Source: an uncultured Planctomycetaceae bacterium (lineage in GTDB: Bacteria > Planctomycetota > Planctomycetia > Pirellulales > Pirellulaceae). Taken from it: a DNA stretch of 8,751 bases. A model generated the notes under the pieces. It had not been told where the DNA came from. It worked only from the letters and a program-made list of their open reading frames with translations, and ran no database searches. The DNA lies in the NCBI GenBank assembly GCA_903927685.1, contig CAIYOB010000846.1:1-8751 (forward strand), given 5' to 3'. The position numbers and the translations under genes are program-made. Shown piece after piece: positions 1,420 to 8,589 of this stretch; position 1 is the stretch's first letter, and every line of letters begins with the position of its first letter.

Positions 1420-2998
1420 AGGAACAAGATGAGCTGGACGCGGGACTCGCCGCGGCGGGGGTATATCCTCGTCGGCCGACAAACCTCGTCACGGCCCAGC
1501 GCGCAAGGCCGAAGACCTGGCGACGCACGTCCGGAGCCGCAACGCACGCCGCCAGGCAGGCCGCCAGCCAAACGAATCCGAGCCAGACGAACAGATAAGC
1601 GGGCGGCAGCTGGACGGGTGTCACCCAGCGCGCCAAGGCACAGACCGAAATGGCGGCCAACAGGGGCGCTCCGGTGTCCCGGACGCCCCAGCGACGAGTG
1701 CTCCCGGTCAGCAGGCGGCGGTGGAGCAGCGGCACGTAGACCAGCAGCGTGGTACTGTGCAGGAACAACCAGGCCCAAGCGCAGCCCGTCGCTCCGTACT
1801 CTACCGCCAGCCATGCTGTCAGGGGTGCGAATACCACCAGTGCCACGAACCCCACGGCGACGTTCAGGGAGGTCCAGCCGTGGGCCAGGGAGAGGCCGTT
1901 GGGGACGACCATCAGCGCCAAGCAAAAGCTGCCGGTCGCCAACAGGGGCGTGATGTGCCGGGCTTGATCGGCCAACGCAAGATCCCCGGTCCATGCGAAC
2001 AGCACCTGAGCCGGAAAAAGGGCGAGCACGGCGGCGACTGGCCCGGCCAGCACCGTGGCGAGCTGAGAGAACTTGTGATAGGCCGACTCCAACGGCACGC
2101 TCTGCCCCCCTTGGACCAACTGCGTGAACCACGGCAGGAGTGCGATGCCCAGAGGGCTGACCAGGACCACGAGCGATTGGGCCAAGAGGCTGGCGAGCCC
2201 GTAGACTCCCAGCGAGGACAGCGGCAGCCACGTGCTGACCACCAGCCGATCCAGTTGAGACAAGACCGCCGCGTTCAGGCTGATCAGGGCCATGCCCACG
2301 GTGTACTGCCACGTCGAGCGAAGCAATTCGCCGCGGAAGCGAGGTCCCGTGCCGGCACGCGGCACGCTCCGCCACAAGAGCACGGCCAAAAGTCCCGCCT
2401 GAACGCCGTTGACGGCCACCTGGCAGGTGAAGAAGGCGGTGATCGTGGGCGCAAAGAGCCATAGCACCAGGATGCTGCCGAATCCCCGCACCACGCCCAG
2501 CCCAATCAGCACGCTATTGAGCAGCACGTGCCGCTGCAATCCCAACAATCCTGCCTGGTAGAGCTGCGAGAGGAAGAACAGCGAAACGGACAACCCCATC
2601 AGCCGGAACGCTCCTACCAGGGTCGCAGCGTCCATCCGTTCGGGATTCACCCAGCGATTGGCCAGCAGGGGAGCTGCCAGGACCAGGCCGATGGCCATCG
2701 CGAGCGACAAGACCCACAACAGGACCTCCACCGTCCGCAGCAAATCGCGCAGGTTCCGGGAATTGGCTGGGTCCGTCGAGAGGCGAGCCATTTCGCGGCT
2801 GAGCGTAGCCTTGACGCCCAGGTCCGCGACGACCAGGACATTCAGCAGGATCGCATACAGCGTCACGAGAGCGTAGGCCTCGATCCCCAGGAAATCGAGG
2901 TAGAACGGCACGAATAAATAGACTGAGAGCGTCGACCAAGCGCGCCCGGCTACGTTGGCTATCAAGTTGCGTCGGATCGGCGACATGGTCACGCTCAC
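1418..2998 (-). CDS. Wzx-like polysaccharide flippase (MOP/MATE-type membrane protein)
   Basis: 526 residues with about 12-14 hydrophobic segments spread along the whole length, for example around 22-37, 42-60, 93-113, 127-150, 160-182, 184-208, 232-249, 262-290, 311-335, 350-370, 378-398, 402-424, 446-460 and 467-487. The order and composition fit the MOP exporter superfamily: an N-terminal RNLIANVAGRAWSTL start, DLGVKATLSREMARL (59-73) after the second segment, and QLDRLVVSTWLPLSSLGVYGL (248-268) at the beginning of the second half, all common in Wzx proteins. It would flip the undecaprenyl-diphosphate-linked repeat unit across the inner membrane. The start is taken as GTG at 2998, giving a 4-nt GTGA overlap with the GNAT stop; an ATG at 2986 (MSPIRRN) is an equally plausible start. 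The C-terminus ends in a low-complexity Ala/Ser stretch (513-526). Its TGA overlaps the ribosome binding site of the GT2 gene. Substrate cannot be read. Confidence 0.92.
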   Translation of the reverse strand: MSVTMSPIRRNLIANVAGRAWSTLSVYLFVPFYLDFLGIEAYALVTLYAILLNVLVVADLGVKATLSREMARLSTDPANSRNLRDLLRTVEVLLWVLSLAMAIGLVLAAPLLANRWVNPERMDAATLVGAFRLMGLSVSLFFLSQLYQAGLLGLQRHVLLNSVLIGLGVVRGFGSILVLWLFAPTITAFFTCQVAVNGVQAGLLAVLLWRSVPRAGTGPRFRGELLRSTWQYTVGMALISLNAAVLSQLDRLVVSTWLPLSSLGVYGLASLLAQSLVVLVSPLGIALLPWFTQLVQGGQSVPLESAYHKFSQLATVLAGPVAAVLALFPAQVLFAWTGDLALADQARHITPLLATGSFCLALMVVPNGLSLAHGWTSLNVAVGFVALVVFAPLTAWLAVEYGATGCAWAWLFLHSTTLLVYVPLLHRRLLTGSTRRWGVRDTGAPLLAAISVCALARWVTPVQLPPAYLFVWLGFVWLAACLAACVAAPDVRRQVFGLARWAVTRFVGRRGYTPAAASPASSSSCS

Positions 2999-3912
2999 AC
3001 GCGGTCAAAAAAGGAAATGTGCCACCGCCGCCACGACGAGCAGGCAAAGTCACGGGAAATGCCCAGCCACATGGCCTGACGCTGCGGCTCCCACGACAGC
3101 TCCTGTTCGCGCCGCAGCCACTCCGTCGCCGGATCATCAAGGCAATCGTTGACGTACAGTCGCGGATAGCGGAAGCGAATCGATTGCCAAAGGTGCGGCA
3201 GAGCCGAGGGAGCCCCAACCAACTCGTAGACCAGGCCGATATCCGGGCGTTCGCCCACCAAGGCGTAACCTTCGTCCGCCCCAGGACCCTTGACGGCAAA
3301 GCAACGGACCCGATCGCACGAGGGGGGAATGACCGTGTAGTCCCGTGCCTCGCGCCGGACGCGGCAGACGCGCCATGCCGCGCGGACCGACTCCAGCCAA
3401 TCCGGATCGACCGCAGCCATCGTCTGGGCGGGCAAAATTGCCGTCGTCGACCGCGGAGACAGCCCGGCGCCGTGGCCGAGCAGCCCGCGGTCGTTGGTCT
3501 GCCAACCGAAGGGTTCGTAGAAGGCGGGGATCGAGGTCCAAAGCACCCCGAAGTCGACCGAGCGTTCCCGCAGCAGTCCGGGAACCGCGCGGAGCAGCGC
3601 GGCCGCCAAACCGCGTCCCCGATAGTCGGGGTCCGTGCAGACGAGGCCGGCCATCGCTCCACGCCACTGGCGATCGTCCGCTTGCCACGCGAATATCCGC
3701 AGGCTCACGCTGGCGCATAGTTTCCCTCCCCAGCGTGCCACCAGCACGTTGTCGAGGTTATCCGGCGCGAGCACGTTCGGGAGCCGAATCGCAAGCGAGA
3801 GGCGGCGCTGGCGCGAGGAGATGAACTCGCGGTCAAGCAGCGTCACGAGCTCGGCGAATGACTCCCGACCGCAAATGGAAATGGCTGCTTCTGGCAGCGT
3901 GGCTACAGGCAT
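2995..3912 (-). CDS. GNAT-family N-acetyltransferase, large two-part form
   Basis: 305 residues. The N-terminal half is a GNAT domain: GLVCTDPDYRGRGLAAALL (89-107) holds the acetyl-CoA pyrophosphate loop R98-G-R-G101-L-A103 of the R/Q-x-x-G-x-G/A type, preceded by the usual strand and followed by VLWTSIPAFYEPFGW (123-137), where FYExFGW is the common late GNAT motif. The C-terminal 150 residues are an unassigned second part, making the protein roughly twice the length of PseH-like sugar acetyltransferases and closer in plan to Eis-like proteins. By context it could acetylate the amino sugar made by the preceding genes, but an unrelated acceptor is possible. The ATG at 3912 is the only ATG before the conserved region; it has no clear ribosome binding site and lies inside the end of the previous gene, so coupling by overlap is likely. 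The gene ends in GTG-TGA that overlaps the flippase start by 4 nt. Confidence 0.85.
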   Translation of the reverse strand: MPVATLPEAAISICGRESFAELVTLLDREFISSRQRRLSLAIRLPNVLAPDNLDNVLVARWGGKLCASVSLRIFAWQADDRQWRGAMAGLVCTDPDYRGRGLAAALLRAVPGLLRERSVDFGVLWTSIPAFYEPFGWQTNDRGLLGHGAGLSPRSTTAILPAQTMAAVDPDWLESVRAAWRVCRVRREARDYTVIPPSCDRVRCFAVKGPGADEGYALVGERPDIGLVYELVGAPSALPHLWQSIRFRYPRLYVNDCLDDPATEWLRREQELSWEPQRQAMWLGISRDFACSSWRRWHISFFDRV

Positions 3913-5032
3913 CTTGGATACAGTCTACGACGTATTGTCGGTCCTCCTCGTTGACCCACCATCCACACGGAATGCTCAATGTATGCGACTGGAAGTGATC
4001 CACGCCGGGGAGATCCGCAGCGGGGCGGCCAAAGCACGAATAGAGATCGTTGCGCAAATGCACTTTCGACGCCTGGATGCCTCGGCGCCGCAACTGCCGA
4101 AGCAGGCCATCACGATCCTGGGCCAGGAACGTGTAGACCCAAAACGCCGGCCGCGCGTGCTCCGGACGTTCCAGCAAGCGGATGCCAGACAGATCCGCCA
4201 ACGCCCGATCATAAAACGTCCCGTTGGCCTGGTGGCGTGCGAGAATATCCGGCAGGCATTCCAGTTGAGCGATCCCCAGGGCAGCCGAAACCTCATGCAT
4301 CGCAATGTTCCAGCCTGCCACGGGGATGTCGGAATGCGGATTGATCTCTCCGTCGGCGTCTCGAAACGAAGGCTGATGGATCCCATATCGTTTCAGCCAG
4401 CGGCCGTGTTCGTAGTGCTCGTCGGAAGCAAACGCGATCGCGCCTCCTTCGAGCGTCGTGATGTGGCGGTTCGGGTAGAACGAGAAGACGGTGAAATCCG
4501 CACCGGTGTTCCCCAACTTGCGCGAGGCGTATTCGGCACCGAGCGCCTCGGACGCATCCTCGACGACCGCCAACTCGTGCTCGCGGGCGATCTCGTACAG
4601 GGCTTCCAGATCGCACGGATTACCGGCCCAGTGGAATGCCAGCAGGGCCTTGGTGCGCGGTGTGATGCGCCGCCGCACGTCGTCCGGATCGAGATTGCCG
4701 GTCTGAGGATCGATGTCGCACCAGCGGATGCGGGCGAACAGGTTGAGTACCGGCTGGTTGGTCGCCAGGCAGGCCATCGGCGAAGCCAGAACTTCGTCGT
4801 CGGGGCGCACTCCGCCCAGGTACAGGCTCAGGGCAAGGGAGGAAGCCGCATCGTTGGTGGCGGTGAGCCGCGGATTGCCGAGGTAGGCCTGCAGCAGGGA
4901 TTCAAAGCGAGCCACGTTTCGCCCTCCGGCGATTTGCCGCGAGTGCAGCACCGCGGCAATCACCCGCTCGGCGTCCTGGGGCAGGTGGACTTGATAGAGG
5001 GGCAGATTTCGAACCGGCGGAAGCTGGACCAT
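3833..5032 (-). CDS. DegT/DnrJ/EryC1-family protein with Arg in place of the PLP lysine (tandem paralogue)
   Basis: 399 residues, colinear with the preceding gene throughout: both share DxDPxxGNLxP, TPxxKA, VxEDAxxALGA, RNDL and IPCGWWV(S/N)(D/E)EDR. Asp159 (VVEDASEALGA) and Ser184 are kept. The motif that aligns with FSLQAIKHMTT is FSFYPNRHITT (183-193), so the Schiff-base lysine is replaced by Arg189, codon CGC at 4468-4466. The phosphate loop SGT of the paralogue also aligns with non-matching residues (NDAA, 60-63). It may be an inactive or regulatory partner in a mixed dimer, or have changed chemistry; ColD-type dehydratases of this fold carry His at this place. The start at 5032 gives the N-terminus that matches the paralogue (RNLPLYQVHLPQD); GAGGA lies 10 nt upstream. 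An ATG at 5083 is possible but would overlap the previous gene. Residues from about 377 to the end have no counterpart in the paralogue and overlap the next gene by 80 nt. Family is firm; function is not. Confidence 0.9.
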   Translation of the reverse strand: MVQLPPVRNLPLYQVHLPQDAERVIAAVLHSRQIAGGRNVARFESLLQAYLGNPRLTATNDAASSLALSLYLGGVRPDDEVLASPMACLATNQPVLNLFARIRWCDIDPQTGNLDPDDVRRRITPRTKALLAFHWAGNPCDLEALYEIAREHELAVVEDASEALGAEYASRKLGNTGADFTVFSFYPNRHITTLEGGAIAFASDEHYEHGRWLKRYGIHQPSFRDADGEINPHSDIPVAGWNIAMHEVSAALGIAQLECLPDILARHQANGTFYDRALADLSGIRLLERPEHARPAFWVYTFLAQDRDGLLRQLRRRGIQASKVHLRNDLYSCFGRPAADLPGVDHFQSHTLSIPCGWWVNEEDRQYVVDCIQDACSHAARSSHFHLRSGVIRRARDAA

Positions 5033-5036
5033 ACCT

Positions 5037-6134
5037 TCACCATCCTCGCCGCAACTGATCGACGATCCGTTCGCGGTCCTCATCGCTGACCCACCAGCCG
5101 CAAGGAATATGCAGCATCTGGGAGTAGAACGCGTCCAGCCCGGGCAACTCGCAGCGGGAGCCGGCAAAGACCGAGTGCAGGTCGTTGCGGCCGTGCGCCA
5201 GCGAATTGCCGATGCCGTGTTCGGTGAGACAGCGGGACAGGTCGTCGCGCCGCTCGGCCAGCACGGTATAGAACCAATAGGAGGGTTCAGCCGCTTGATC
5301 CCACGCGCACAACTCCAGGCCGGGAATGCCCCGCAGTTGCTGATCGAAGTACTTGCCGTTGGCGATATGGCGGGCGATCACGGGCGCGATGTGGTCCAGT
5401 TGCACCAGCCCGAGCGTGGCGTTGACGTTGTTCATGTGGTACTTGTATCCGACCATGTCCACGTCGACTTCGGTGCGCGGAGCGTGCCGGTCGATCCCGA
5501 ACCAACGCACTTTCCGGCCCCGCGGCAAGTCCTCCGAGTTTTCGCAGGCCAGCATCCCGCCATCGACGGTCGTCATGTGCTTGATAGCCTGCAGCGAGAA
5601 CATGGTGAACTGGGAGTCATGGCCGATACTGCGACCGCCATAGCGAGCGCCCAGCGCGTGAGCGGCGTCCTCGATGACCGGAATCCCCTGAGCCCGCGCG
5701 ATCTGCCGAATGGCTTCCATCGGAGCCGGGATGCCGCCGTAGTGGACGACCACGATCGCTTTGACGTGGGGCGTGAGCCGGGCCGCGATCGCCGCCGGTG
5801 CCAAGTTCCCGTTGCGCGGATCGACATCGGCCCAAACCACGCGGGCCCCGGCATGCCGGATGGCCATGTTCGTCGGCTCGGCGGTCATGGCCGTGGAAAT
5901 CACATCGTCGCCCGGTTGAACCCCTGCCAGGATCAACGCGGTGTGGAGGGCTGCGGTGCCGCTGTAGAAGGACAATACATGGGGCAACCCGACGAAGTCC
6001 GCGAATCGCCGTTCGAACTCGTAGACCGGCTCGCCTTCGCTGATCTGGCCGCTGTACAGAACCTCGCGCAGCCGCGGGAGCAATGCCTCTTCGGGCGGCA
6101 GGAACACCTTGAAGAGCGGAATGGCAAGCGGCAT
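5037..6134 (-). CDS. DegT/DnrJ/EryC1-family PLP sugar aminotransferase (catalytic lysine present)
   Basis: 365 residues, the usual size of sugar-nucleotide aminotransferases of this family, which put an amino group on a 4-keto (or 3-keto) sugar using glutamate and PLP. The N-terminal IPLFKVFLPPEE segment is typical. SGTAAL (58-63) is the PLP-phosphate loop. VIEDAAHALGARY (153-165) contains Asp156, expected to pair with the pyridine nitrogen. FSLQAIKHMTTVDGG (179-193) contains Lys185, codon AAG at 5582-5580, the Schiff-base lysine. NDLHSVF and IPCGWWVSDEDR (343-354) complete the C-terminal domain. The ATG at 6134 follows AAGGAAAG; longer in-frame starts would run into the dehydratase gene and add unlike sequence. 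Its substrate is plausibly the keto sugar made by the preceding dehydratase. The TGA is only 4 nt before the ATG of a tandem paralogue, so translation of the two is probably coupled. Regiochemistry of transamination is unknown. Confidence 0.93.
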   Translation of the reverse strand: MPLAIPLFKVFLPPEEALLPRLREVLYSGQISEGEPVYEFERRFADFVGLPHVLSFYSGTAALHTALILAGVQPGDDVISTAMTAEPTNMAIRHAGARVVWADVDPRNGNLAPAAIAARLTPHVKAIVVVHYGGIPAPMEAIRQIARAQGIPVIEDAAHALGARYGGRSIGHDSQFTMFSLQAIKHMTTVDGGMLACENSEDLPRGRKVRWFGIDRHAPRTEVDVDMVGYKYHMNNVNATLGLVQLDHIAPVIARHIANGKYFDQQLRGIPGLELCAWDQAAEPSYWFYTVLAERRDDLSRCLTEHGIGNSLAHGRNDLHSVFAGSRCELPGLDAFYSQMLHIPCGWWVSDEDRERIVDQLRRGW

Positions 6135-6141
6135 CGGTCGA

Positions 6142-6149
6142 CTTTCCTT
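6142..6149 (-). promoter_or_regulatory. Ribosome binding site fixing the start of the first aminotransferase
   Basis: The minus strand reads AAGGAAAG here, 7 nt before the ATG at 6134-6132. The frame stays open far upstream, to 6368, inside the dehydratase gene, so this site and the match to the paralogue's N-terminus decide the start. Confidence 0.7.
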
Positions 6150-6183
6150 GGAACTGGATGCGGCGCAGACGGAACGCCCGACC

Positions 6184-7299
6184 TCAGGCGGCCCGGCGGA
6201 TTCGCAACGGCACGGAGATCTGCTGTTGGAACCATTCCGCATCAGCTCGCCCGCCAACGATGCGCAGGGCTTTGGTTCCGGGGCGGCCCGGAGCGCTGAC
6301 CCAGCCATCGAGCCGCAAGAGGTCCAGCAACTCGTCGTCGTCCAGCAGGTGCACGTCGTTCGACGCATACTCGGGGAACGGCCCCTGCGTCAGGCCCGGC
6401 TTCTCGAGCGACTTGGCCCAGGAGGGGATCTGGAAGTACTCCTCCATCTCCGTAGCCCGCCACATCTCTTCTTCGGAGACCAGGACTTCGTGCATCTTTT
6501 CTCCGGGACGCGTGCCCAAGATCTGCTGGGGATAGTCCTGCCGGCCCGTCAGCCCGAAAGCCAGCACGCGGGCCAGGTCGCAAATGCGGGCCGAGGGCAT
6601 TTTTCGCACCCAGAGGTCGCCGCTTTCGCCTTTCACGGCGGCCCACAGCACCAGCTGGACGGCCTCTCGCAGCGTCAGCTGGAAACGGGTCATGTCGGGA
6701 TGGGTGATCGGGATCGGCTTGCCGTTCATGACGAAGTCGCAGAACAGCGGCACCACGCTGCCGCGACTGCCCAGCACGTTGCCGTACCGCACGCATACGA
6801 AGCGAGTGCCCGACTCGCCATTTACCGGATGGAGCATGATCCGCTCCTGAATGGCCTTGGACATCCCCATCACGTTCACCGGCTTGACCGCCTTGTCGGT
6901 GCTGATCGCCACGACGGTTTCCACGCCCTGCTCGATCGCCGCTCGCCGTACGTTCTCCGCTCCAGTGACGTTGGTCCGCACGGCTTCGTAGGGGGCAAAC
7001 TCGCAATTCGGCACCTGCTTCAGGGCGGCGGCATGGAAAACCACGTCGATGCCCCGGAATGCCTCGCGCGTCCGCTCGTAGTCCCGTACATCGCCCAGGA
7101 TGAATCGCAGCACGCCGCTCGTATCGGCGTATTCCTGCTGCATGTCCCATTGTTTCTTTTCATCCCGGCTGAAGATGTAGACGGCTTCCGGGGAGTACGG
7201 CAACAGTTCCCGGACGATCTCGTAGCCGAAACTGCCGGTGCCTCCGGTGACCAGGATCCGCTTCCCGCCGAGGCAATCCGCGATTTCTTTCTTGTCCAT
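6184..7299 (-). CDS. UDP-GlcNAc 4,6-dehydratase-like SDR (PseB/CapE/FlaA1 family)
   Basis: A 371-residue extended short-chain dehydrogenase. The NAD(P) loop is GGTGSFG (19-25), followed by IFSRDEKKQ (42-50), GDVRD (69-73) and HAAALKQVP (89-97), all characteristic of the Polysacc_synt_2 family. Enzymes of this family remove water from UDP-GlcNAc to give a UDP-4-keto-6-deoxy-HexNAc, often with C5 inversion, the first step towards pseudaminic-acid-type sugars, bacillosamine or L-FucNAc. STDK (133-136) carries the catalytic Asp-Lys pair. The SDR YxxxK motif is replaced by M144-G-M-S-K148, as I recall for CapE, whereas PseB and FlaA1 keep tyrosine. RYGNVLGSRGS (171-181) is the UDP-sugar-binding stretch. 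GTRPGEKMHE (262-271) and the C-terminal DDDELLDLLR also fit the family. The last 40 residues are less typical. A modest GAGG lies 5 nt before the ATG. The next gene is an aminotransferase 49 nt downstream, which fits conversion of the keto group to an amine. Choice between PseB-like and CapE-like chemistry is open. Confidence 0.92.
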   Translation of the reverse strand: MDKKEIADCLGGKRILVTGGTGSFGYEIVRELLPYSPEAVYIFSRDEKKQWDMQQEYADTSGVLRFILGDVRDYERTREAFRGIDVVFHAAALKQVPNCEFAPYEAVRTNVTGAENVRRAAIEQGVETVVAISTDKAVKPVNVMGMSKAIQERIMLHPVNGESGTRFVCVRYGNVLGSRGSVVPLFCDFVMNGKPIPITHPDMTRFQLTLREAVQLVLWAAVKGESGDLWVRKMPSARICDLARVLAFGLTGRQDYPQQILGTRPGEKMHEVLVSEEEMWRATEMEEYFQIPSWAKSLEKPGLTQGPFPEYASNDVHLLDDDELLDLLRLDGWVSAPGRPGTKALRIVGGRADAEWFQQQISVPLRIRRAA

Positions 7300-7362
7300 T
7301 CAAGCCTCGCTTTCTGGTTTGCTGCTTCTCCGCCGTGCGGTCCGTTGGCCAAGCCTCTCCCC

Positions 7363-8589
7363 TCACGCGGAAGCACGCCATTGGGATGCAATTGCCGCCG
7401 GCGCACGCTCGGATTCGGCTTCCTCCAGCGACAGAACCTGTCGCGTCGAAAGTCCCAGCACCTCGTGCATCATCGCCAAGTACTGCTCGACTTCCCTCTC
7501 CCAGTAGCATTCCTGGGCCCAGCGGCGGGCCTGCGTTTTCTTCTCAGCCACTTCCGCCGGATGAATGCTCTCGACCAGCTCGGCCAGCCGCTTTTCAGCC
7601 ACGGGAACCTTCCAGCCGCAGCCCCACTGGTCGATCACCGCACCCATGTCCGGAAAGTCGCTGACAATCACCGGCACGCCGCCTTGCAAGGATTCCAGCA
7701 GCTTGTTGGGCAGCGTGTGGTAGTAGCTCAGGCAGGTGCGTTCAATCAGGCAGAAGCCGACGTCGGCGGTGCTGACGTAGCGGACGACCTCGTGCGGGGC
7801 TACGCCCGGCAGTACGTGGATGTTGCGGCACCGCGCGGCGTACTGCTCGGCCCGTGGCAGCAACTGACCGAAGCCCATGAAGACGAGGTGTTTCCGCGGA
7901 TCGCCGCGTTCGAAGACCGGCAGCATCAAGTCAATCCCTCGGCCCGGCGACATCAGACCTTGGTAAATAAAGAGCAGTTCGTCCTCAGGAATCCCCAGTC
8001 GCTGTTTCAAGGTTACGTCGGGGCCCTGTCCGGGCTGATGTCGCAGTGGGTAGTTTTTCACTACGACCACATTATCGACGCCGTAACGTTCTTCGTACAG
8101 ACGGCCAAAGCCGTCGCTGGTCACCACGATCCGATCCAGGAACGGCATGGCGCATCGTTCGATCATCTTCCCCATCAGTTTTCTGACGCCACGGGCTTCG
8201 ATCGTTTCGGATTCAAACTCGTGCGTGTCGTAGACGACGCGGCAACCGGTCAAGACACGAAAGGCAAGAGCCATCGGCAACATGGACAGGCTATGCGGAT
8301 GCACGCACTCGATGTCCTGACTACGAAACCGGTTGAGGCACCTTAAACTCCATTCAAGGAATCGGCATGTCTTGCGAATCAGGCCTCCGCCGTAGCCCAT
8401 GCATGGCGTGCGGACTCGCCAGACGGTGCGGTTCGCGTCCAACGGTTCGCACTCCGGAAGCCCCCTCTCCCAAGTGGCAAGGATATGAATCCTGTCGAAT
8501 ACTCGCGCTTCGCACAGCGAGCCGGTGATCCGGAGGATCCGTGACTCGTGCCGGAACGAAGAAGGATACATGTGGATGTCCAGTCCCAT
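7363..8589 (-). CDS. GT4-family glycosyltransferase (GT-B fold)
   Basis: A 408-residue protein of normal length for a retaining GT4 glycosyltransferase, which moves a sugar from a nucleotide donor to a lipid-linked acceptor at the cytoplasmic face of the inner membrane. The N-terminal Rossmann half (about 1-180) contains the YDTHEFES segment (120-127) typical of GT4 proteins. The C-terminal half begins with IYQGLMSPGRGID (208-220), the linker and donor-domain start in which Gly and Arg contact the donor phosphates. Further on are LPGVAP (260-265) and PNKLLESLQGGVPVI (294-308), where Asn-Lys-Leu-Glu and Gly-Val-Pro form the nucleotide-sugar site. Residues 380-408 look like a flexible tail. The ATG at 8589 is set by AGAGGAG 6 nt upstream. 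The gene is followed after 63 nt by the 4,6-dehydratase gene. Family assignment is firm; donor, acceptor and linkage cannot be read from the sequence. Confidence 0.93.
   Translation of the reverse strand: MGLDIHMYPSSFRHESRILRITGSLCEARVFDRIHILATWERGLPECEPLDANRTVWRVRTPCMGYGGGLIRKTCRFLEWSLRCLNRFRSQDIECVHPHSLSMLPMALAFRVLTGCRVVYDTHEFESETIEARGVRKLMGKMIERCAMPFLDRIVVTSDGFGRLYEERYGVDNVVVVKNYPLRHQPGQGPDVTLKQRLGIPEDELLFIYQGLMSPGRGIDLMLPVFERGDPRKHLVFMGFGQLLPRAEQYAARCRNIHVLPGVAPHEVVRYVSTADVGFCLIERTCLSYYHTLPNKLLESLQGGVPVIVSDFPDMGAVIDQWGCGWKVPVAEKRLAELVESIHPAEVAEKKTQARRWAQECYWEREVEQYLAMMHEVLGLSTRQVLSLEEAESERAPAAIASQWRASA

Follow-up and report, generated by a model that had tools for sequence, protein, structure and literature searches.

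A conserved clade of DegT-fold proteins without the PLP lysine, found together with a lysine-bearing paralogue and probably its partner subunit

The window, meaning the whole 8,751-nucleotide stretch of DNA analysed here, carries several neighbouring genes on its reverse strand, to which all features below belong unless stated otherwise. A UDP-GlcNAc 4,6-dehydratase-like gene of the PseB/FnlA group (6184..7299; PF02719, 1.1e-101) codes for a protein which scores 329.6 bits against TIGR03589, under the cut-off of 407.75, and which presumably makes a 4-keto substrate. Downstream lie two paralogous DegT genes. The gene P0002 (5037..6134) codes for a protein of 365 aa with the complete set of PLP residues including Lys185 (codon AAG at 5580..5582), and its stop codon ends 4 bases upstream of the ATG of the gene P0001 (3833..5032), coding for a 399-aa protein with a DegT fold and no PLP lysine, hereafter the partner. 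The partner gene in turn shares its last 80 bases with a GNAT acetyltransferase gene (2995..3912; PF13527, 2.7e-14), whose product presumably adds an acetyl group to the amino sugar. Where members of the family usually stop, the partner gene continues for some 24 more codons, CSHAARSSHFHLRSGVIRRARDAA (3833-3912), which share their bases, in a different frame, with the beginning of the GNAT gene; the homologue P0003 (93% identical) is equally long. An open frame of 745 aa on the forward strand (6109-8346) runs opposite the dehydratase gene and the glycosyltransferase gene and is probably a by-product of the high G+C content.

Both DegT proteins match PF01041 (DegT/DnrJ/EryC1/StrS) along their entire length, the partner with an E-value of 4.2e-77 and 260 bits against a cut-off of 19.8, so it is a member of the family. 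Its AF2 model has a mean pLDDT of 88.8, and the nearest solved fold is that of CalS13/AtmS13 (Foldseek TM 0.85 to 4zas). The roles of the site residues were transferred to the partner and Lys proteins by motif and spacing from Spr1654, in which an Asp holds the pyridine nitrogen, a His the O3′, and a Thr, a Ser and the helix dipole hold the phosphate (PMC5936713).

The stretch FSFYPNRHITT of the partner aligns without gaps with FSLQAIKHMTT of P0002 and likewise with the matching stretch of AtmS13, which places Arg189 (codon CGC, 4466..4468) in the column of the PLP lysine. The first-pass annotation had reported exactly this substitution (CGC at 4468-4466 against AAG at 5582-5580), and both the codons and the alignment bear it out. 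It had also excluded a single base error on the grounds that AAA and AAG differ from CGC at all three codon positions, and this argument holds, with Arg present in 117 of the 120 homologues listed as well. The same is true of its remarks that Asp159 (4556..4558), the pyridine-nitrogen ligand, and Ser184 are kept, and that the SGT phosphate loop does not match: according to the alignment with P0002 and AtmS13, the partner has D-A-A there, with Asp61 (4850..4852) replacing the Ser. What it overlooked is the replacement of the O3′-binding His (or Gln) by Glu162 (4547..4549).

The counts for the Arg clade refer to 120 homologues listed among 1315 found, or to 121 sequences when the window protein is included. 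Among the 120 there are 117 with Arg and three with Lys at position 189 (P0009, P0010 and P0100), which makes 118 and three with the window, so that the aldimine lysine of DegT aminotransferases is absent from nearly all of the 121. The joint states at positions 61, 162 and 189 are D-E-R in 113, E-E-R in five and D-E-K in three of the 121 listed sequences. Position 61 is therefore Asp in 116 and Glu in five, position 62 is mostly Ile, Val or Ala, and position 63 is Ser in 117 and Ala in four; Glu162, Cys88, Asp159, Ser184 and Arg215 (4388..4390) are each found in 121/121. In the Lys family (120 sequences from the matches listed), the same positions read Ser61 in 118, Gly62 and Thr63 in 120, Asp159 in 120, His162 in 119 with a single Gln, Ser184 and Lys189 in 120 and Trp215 in 120. 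Thus, no listed member of the Arg clade retains the phosphate loop or the O3′ ligand, and position 189 is always positively charged.

The suggestion that Arg defines a conserved clade stands as far as the size of the clade and the 117 of 120 listed homologues are concerned but not with regard to Arg itself, as Lys189 occurs in three of the 120 and in the partners from genomes G001 and G1045, both of which have Asp61 and Glu162. Since the Lys189 members retain these two residues, the clade is defined by the change of the whole site and not by Arg. Members combining Lys189, Asp61 and Glu162 are P0009, P0010, P0100 and the frames at L001 1580-2758 and L099 1446-2558. In the partner from G002, a Bacteroidetes genome, Glu162 and Arg189 are present and, judging by the alignment, positions 61 and 184 are Thr and Asn. 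Glu162 was also considered as a mark of PLP loss, an idea that was dropped, as this residue also occurs in His189 proteins and in a few Lys189 proteins (P0344, L015, L084).

A check for another active-site lysine, proposed in the first-pass annotation, gave no invariant lysine column elsewhere in the clade, the best being K214 (113), K128 (109), K172 (108) and K323 (106 of the 121 listed), with substitutions mostly to Arg. A relocated aldimine lysine is for this reason not indicated, and this candidate was dropped. The sugar-site residues H325, R327, N328, D329, W298 and Y300, shared with the Lys family, are kept in 121/121 listed sequences. The modelled Arg protein has a helix that starts at residue 62, so Asp61 is located at its start, where the phosphate would bind, and may repel it.

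In order to assign polarity to the changes, 117 single relatives hand-chosen for Lys189, Gln186 and Lys242 served for comparison. The Lys family keeps the residue common among these relatives at Ser61 (106 of 117), Thr63 (115), His162 (115), Trp215 (117) and Asp219 (110), and at these five positions the changed lineage is the Arg clade. The Lys family has changes of its own, namely Tyr60, Ala88 (Cys in 111/117 relatives), Glu89 and Tyr135 (Trp in 107/117), and therefore the Arg and Lys proteins have both diverged around the site. The mean entropy at 24 hand-picked site positions is 0.27 bit in the Arg clade versus 1.18 elsewhere in the protein, and 0.05 bit in the Lys family versus 0.78 elsewhere.

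In the careful tree, the Arg clade including the G001 and G1045 partners and the Lys clade including the proteins of G001, G002 and G1045 both have a support of 100/100, and AtmS13/CalS13 fall outside both clades in the trees. When the long G002 partner was added, the Arg side still held together with a support of 98 in a quick tree. The sister relation of the Arg and Lys clades has a support of 0.806 in FastTree but is missing from the careful tree, where imposing it gives an AU p of 0.114, so the statement that the two genes are proven sisters was dropped. At least three changes between Arg and Lys at position 189 are required on 15 tree rows. The distance matrices for 38 Lys-Arg pairs correlate with r of 0.71, the highest value in 2000 permutations being 0.37, although such a correlation is expected for any two genes sharing one contig. 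The mean identity across the 38 pairs is 65% for the Arg proteins and 78% for the Lys proteins.

The two genes tend to be found together. For 37 of the 120 listed Arg-clade matches, the longest contig has exactly the same length as that of a listed Lys homologue, compared to a mean of 0.755 and a maximum of five matches in 400 shifted controls with lengths moved by 1 to 200 either way. This comparison of the 120 listed Arg-clade matches with 119 listed Lys-family matches gives a lower bound, because both sets stop near 120 matches and two genes would not fit on many of the contigs. The Lys189 homologues P0009, P0010 and P0100 are not among the 37 contig-matched of the 120 listed, and one of them lies on a 2.2-kb contig.

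Among 200 genomes of the order of G001, two carry the partner (E<=1e-60), and these are also the two with the Lys gene (E<=1e-80), which lies next to it in both; among 149 genomes of the order of G002, both genes were present in G002 only. In total, the same three of 349 genomes (G001, G1045 and G002) carry both genes, two of the three with Lys189 partners, and no partner gene was found without the Lys gene among the 349 genomes (three carriers). As the queries originated from G001 and G002, G1045 is the single independent genome find. The order dehydratase, Lys gene, partner, GNAT is common to the window and G1045, the GNAT proteins of which share 34% identity across 289 columns. The G001 contig opens with the Lys gene, and its GNAT gene comes after the partner, while in G002 the order is dehydratase, Lys gene, acyltransferase, GNAT, partner and flippase, with two genes separating the Lys gene and the partner. 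The proposal that the Arg gene always lies beside a Lys paralogue is thus supported as to the two being found together (37 of the 120 listed by contig, and three genomes), but "always" goes further than these counts, the first of which is a lower bound.

Several surveys went beyond the listed homologues. No Arg-clade member was detected in 392 genomes of the phylum of G003 (alignment A1, E<=1e-120, up to five candidates scored per genome). The DNA pattern for FSFY(P/A)NR gave one match in the same 392 genomes, spurious and with an in-frame stop, and none in 398 genomes of the phylum of G001. Plasmids (927 records) and phages (76 records) contained no place with at least 60% identity. Of 143 relatives on viral contigs, 80 were kept. 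The 112 DegT frames aligned across the collected loci comprise 102 with Lys, four with His, three with Arg and three without the column, with the three Arg frames being the window protein and one G002 gene that appears in two overlapping loci. On some viral contigs, a Lys-type DegT gene is closely followed by a His189 (ColD-like) DegT gene (L082 7944-10195, L091 7962-11121, L092 8007-10290, L085 7893-10139), which is another tandem of a lysine-bearing and a lysine-less protein. No Lys-Arg fusion was seen among the 120 listed of 124 matches to a joined query. Other domain combinations were observed: long DegT proteins with Hint, intein-splicing (PF13403, PF14890) and LAGLIDADG (PF03161) domains, which look like intein-carrying aminotransferases (P0244-P0247, P0252, P0263, P0268, P0276 and others), DegT-GNAT fusions (P0249, P0250, P0256, P0258, P0260 and others), and fusions of DegT with a sugar 4,6-dehydratase-like domain (e.g. 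P0257, P0265 and P0296, named from Emiliania huxleyi).

Since their genes tend to co-occur, P0002 and the partner probably assemble into a single heteromeric nucleotide-sugar aminotransferase in which each pair has one PLP site, the complex being what we infer from the co-occurrence. This makes the "dead partner", one of the options offered in the first-pass annotation, the favoured reading. In the Spr1654 structure, each active site is built by two subunits, with the contacts to uracil and diphosphate coming partly from the other chain (PMC5936713), and a trans-acting role of the Arg chain may be deduced from such DegT sites located at the dimer interface with residues of both chains. In a Lys/Arg dimer, PLP would be bound only in the site of the Lys chain, to which the Arg chain would contribute in trans the uracil-holding S-G-Q-I loop and the loop around residues 215-244. 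The own site of the Arg chain would be kept shut and PLP-free through a network of salt bridges, with Asp61 at the helix start in the place of the phosphate, and Asp159 and Glu162 facing Arg/Lys189. The substrate aminated by the pair would be the 4-keto-6-deoxy-UDP-HexNAc from the adjacent dehydratase, and the neighbouring GNAT would acetylate the aminated sugar for a surface glycan.

The heteromer is favoured by the large intact Arg clade, the coupled loss of residues, the co-occurrence, the cluster order common to the window and G1045, the full tree support for each clade, the correlated distances, the interface chemistry of the family and the precedent of serine palmitoyltransferase. Other facts count against it. 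P0002 has every cofactor residue, and CalS13/AtmS13, the solved proteins nearest to it, are single-gene enzymes, so it could act alone as a homodimer. The sister relation of the two clades is not borne out by the careful tree. The conservation of the dead pocket (0.27 versus 1.18 bit at the 24 hand-picked positions) exceeds what a mere scaffold needs. There is no fusion among the 120 listed matches, the G002 genes are separated by two others, the contig match covers just 37 of the 120 listed and includes no Lys189 homologue, and the three genomes that carry the pair include two query sources and two with Lys189 partners.

In the Arg protein neither the aldimine lysine nor the phosphate loop nor the O3′ His is left, yet the fold and the remaining site residues are preserved, and the rebuilt pocket is highly conserved. 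The conservation of this pocket speaks most strongly for the main rival, which we consider unlikely, namely that the protein is an enzyme or a binder itself. The former PLP pocket with Asp61, Asp159, Glu162, Cys88, Arg189 and Arg215 would then accommodate a ligand, such as a sugar nucleotide, and carry out a cofactor-free step such as epimerisation or product transfer. Such a function is consistent with the pocket being conserved far above the remaining protein, with the five residues invariant in the 121 listed sequences (E162, C88, D159, S184, R215) and with the retention of the six sugar-site residues shared with the Lys family. However, Lys is tolerated for Arg189 and Glu for Asp61, and according to the alignment position 61 is Thr in the partner from Bacteroidetes, so an electrostatic role fits these two positions better than a catalytic one; besides, the gene was never found without the Lys gene in the 349 genomes (n=3). 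A variant in which both ideas are combined seems doubtful to us: the subunit without lysine would not be inert, and its Asp61/Asp159/Glu162/Arg189/Arg215 pocket would take the sugar nucleotide for a second, cofactor-free step or pass the labile 4-keto sugar across the interface to the PLP site. Two different sites would in this case have arisen from one ancestral site, and the pair would be the first heteromeric DegT enzyme of such a design to be described.

A lysine-less DegT protein with bound PMP is a known solution, and ColD and E1 appear as solved relatives in the sequence and fold comparisons, but it is very unlikely that the partner is a PMP-dependent enzyme resembling these 3-dehydratases with Arg in place of His. 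The comparison with ColD made in the first-pass annotation is fairer than first judged, because Glu162 occurs in three aligned His189 DegT proteins from viral contigs (L082, L091, L092); these retain an S-G-S phosphate loop, though, whereas the Arg clade has D/E-I/V/A-S/A, so that PMP would be left without its main anchor, and Glu162 is found alongside Lys189 too (P0344, L015, L084). The loss of cofactor residues from a preserved fold would also suit a sugar sensor or a scaffold with a regulatory effect on the pathway, or on the Lys enzyme without sharing an active site with it. We regard this as improbable, as the protein has no extra domain, its length and fold are those of the enzyme and its conservation is centred on the pocket. 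The lost lysine and the 24-residue tail overlapping the GNAT gene, which could reflect a lost stop codon, might point to a decaying paralogue or a sequence error, an explanation that is already contradicted and almost certainly wrong: the frames are intact, P0003 also has 399 aa, and Arg is shared by 117 of the 120 listed homologues, so the change is not an isolated one, which was another check proposed at the outset.

DegT-fold sugar aminotransferases are usually treated as homodimers, and members of the lysine-less clade are annotated as "perosamine synthetase" or "dTDP-4-amino-4,6-dideoxygalactose transaminase" according to the source names of the homologues. Should the pair prove to be a single enzyme, many metagenomic annotations would be in error, and the DegT family would offer a natural system for studying why evolution breaks the symmetry of two sites; a pocket with chemistry of its own would represent a new lysine-free use of the PLP fold. 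Both readings are testable with two small soluble proteins.

The one-site, two-subunit design is known elsewhere, e.g. from serine palmitoyltransferase, and no description of it, or of an Arg-type or heteromeric DegT enzyme, was found in open-licence PMC papers (titles and abstract starts). CalS13/AtmS13 (PDB 4zas, 4xau, 4zwv) are the top sequence and fold matches for both window proteins and share with them the C-terminal G-W-W and R-N-D motifs, but differ in having their own SGT/CGT loop, Lys and His/Gln at position 162, in being encoded by one gene and in lying outside the Lys and Arg clades. Among the NCBIfam models, both proteins score best with that of the PseC-type UDP-4-keto-HexNAc aminotransferases, and the gene upstream codes for a PseB-like dehydratase, but the scores against TIGR03588 (212.6 bits for the partner and 211.5 for P0002) are half of the cut-off of 423.5, and PseC itself has the lysine. 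ColD and E1, which are PMP-dependent 3-dehydratases, resemble the partner in having a DegT fold with the lysine replaced and Glu162, but possess His and an intact phosphate loop where the partner has Arg and has lost the loop. The glycine decarboxylase P-protein of some bacteria consists of two homologous subunits, alpha and beta, with one PLP lysine per pair, and belongs to a family other than DegT. In human serine palmitoyltransferase, the PLP lysine is present in LCB2a and missing from LCB1, and one site per heterodimer is the working hypothesis (PMC3794620). This eukaryotic membrane enzyme differs from the window pair in its family and reaction but is similar in being a homologous pair of fold-type-I PLP proteins with the lysine in one subunit alone (PMC3794620). 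The window pair, with a homologous lysine-bearing partner and the two genes kept together in 37 of the 120 listed matches and in three of three genomes, would probably share this design.
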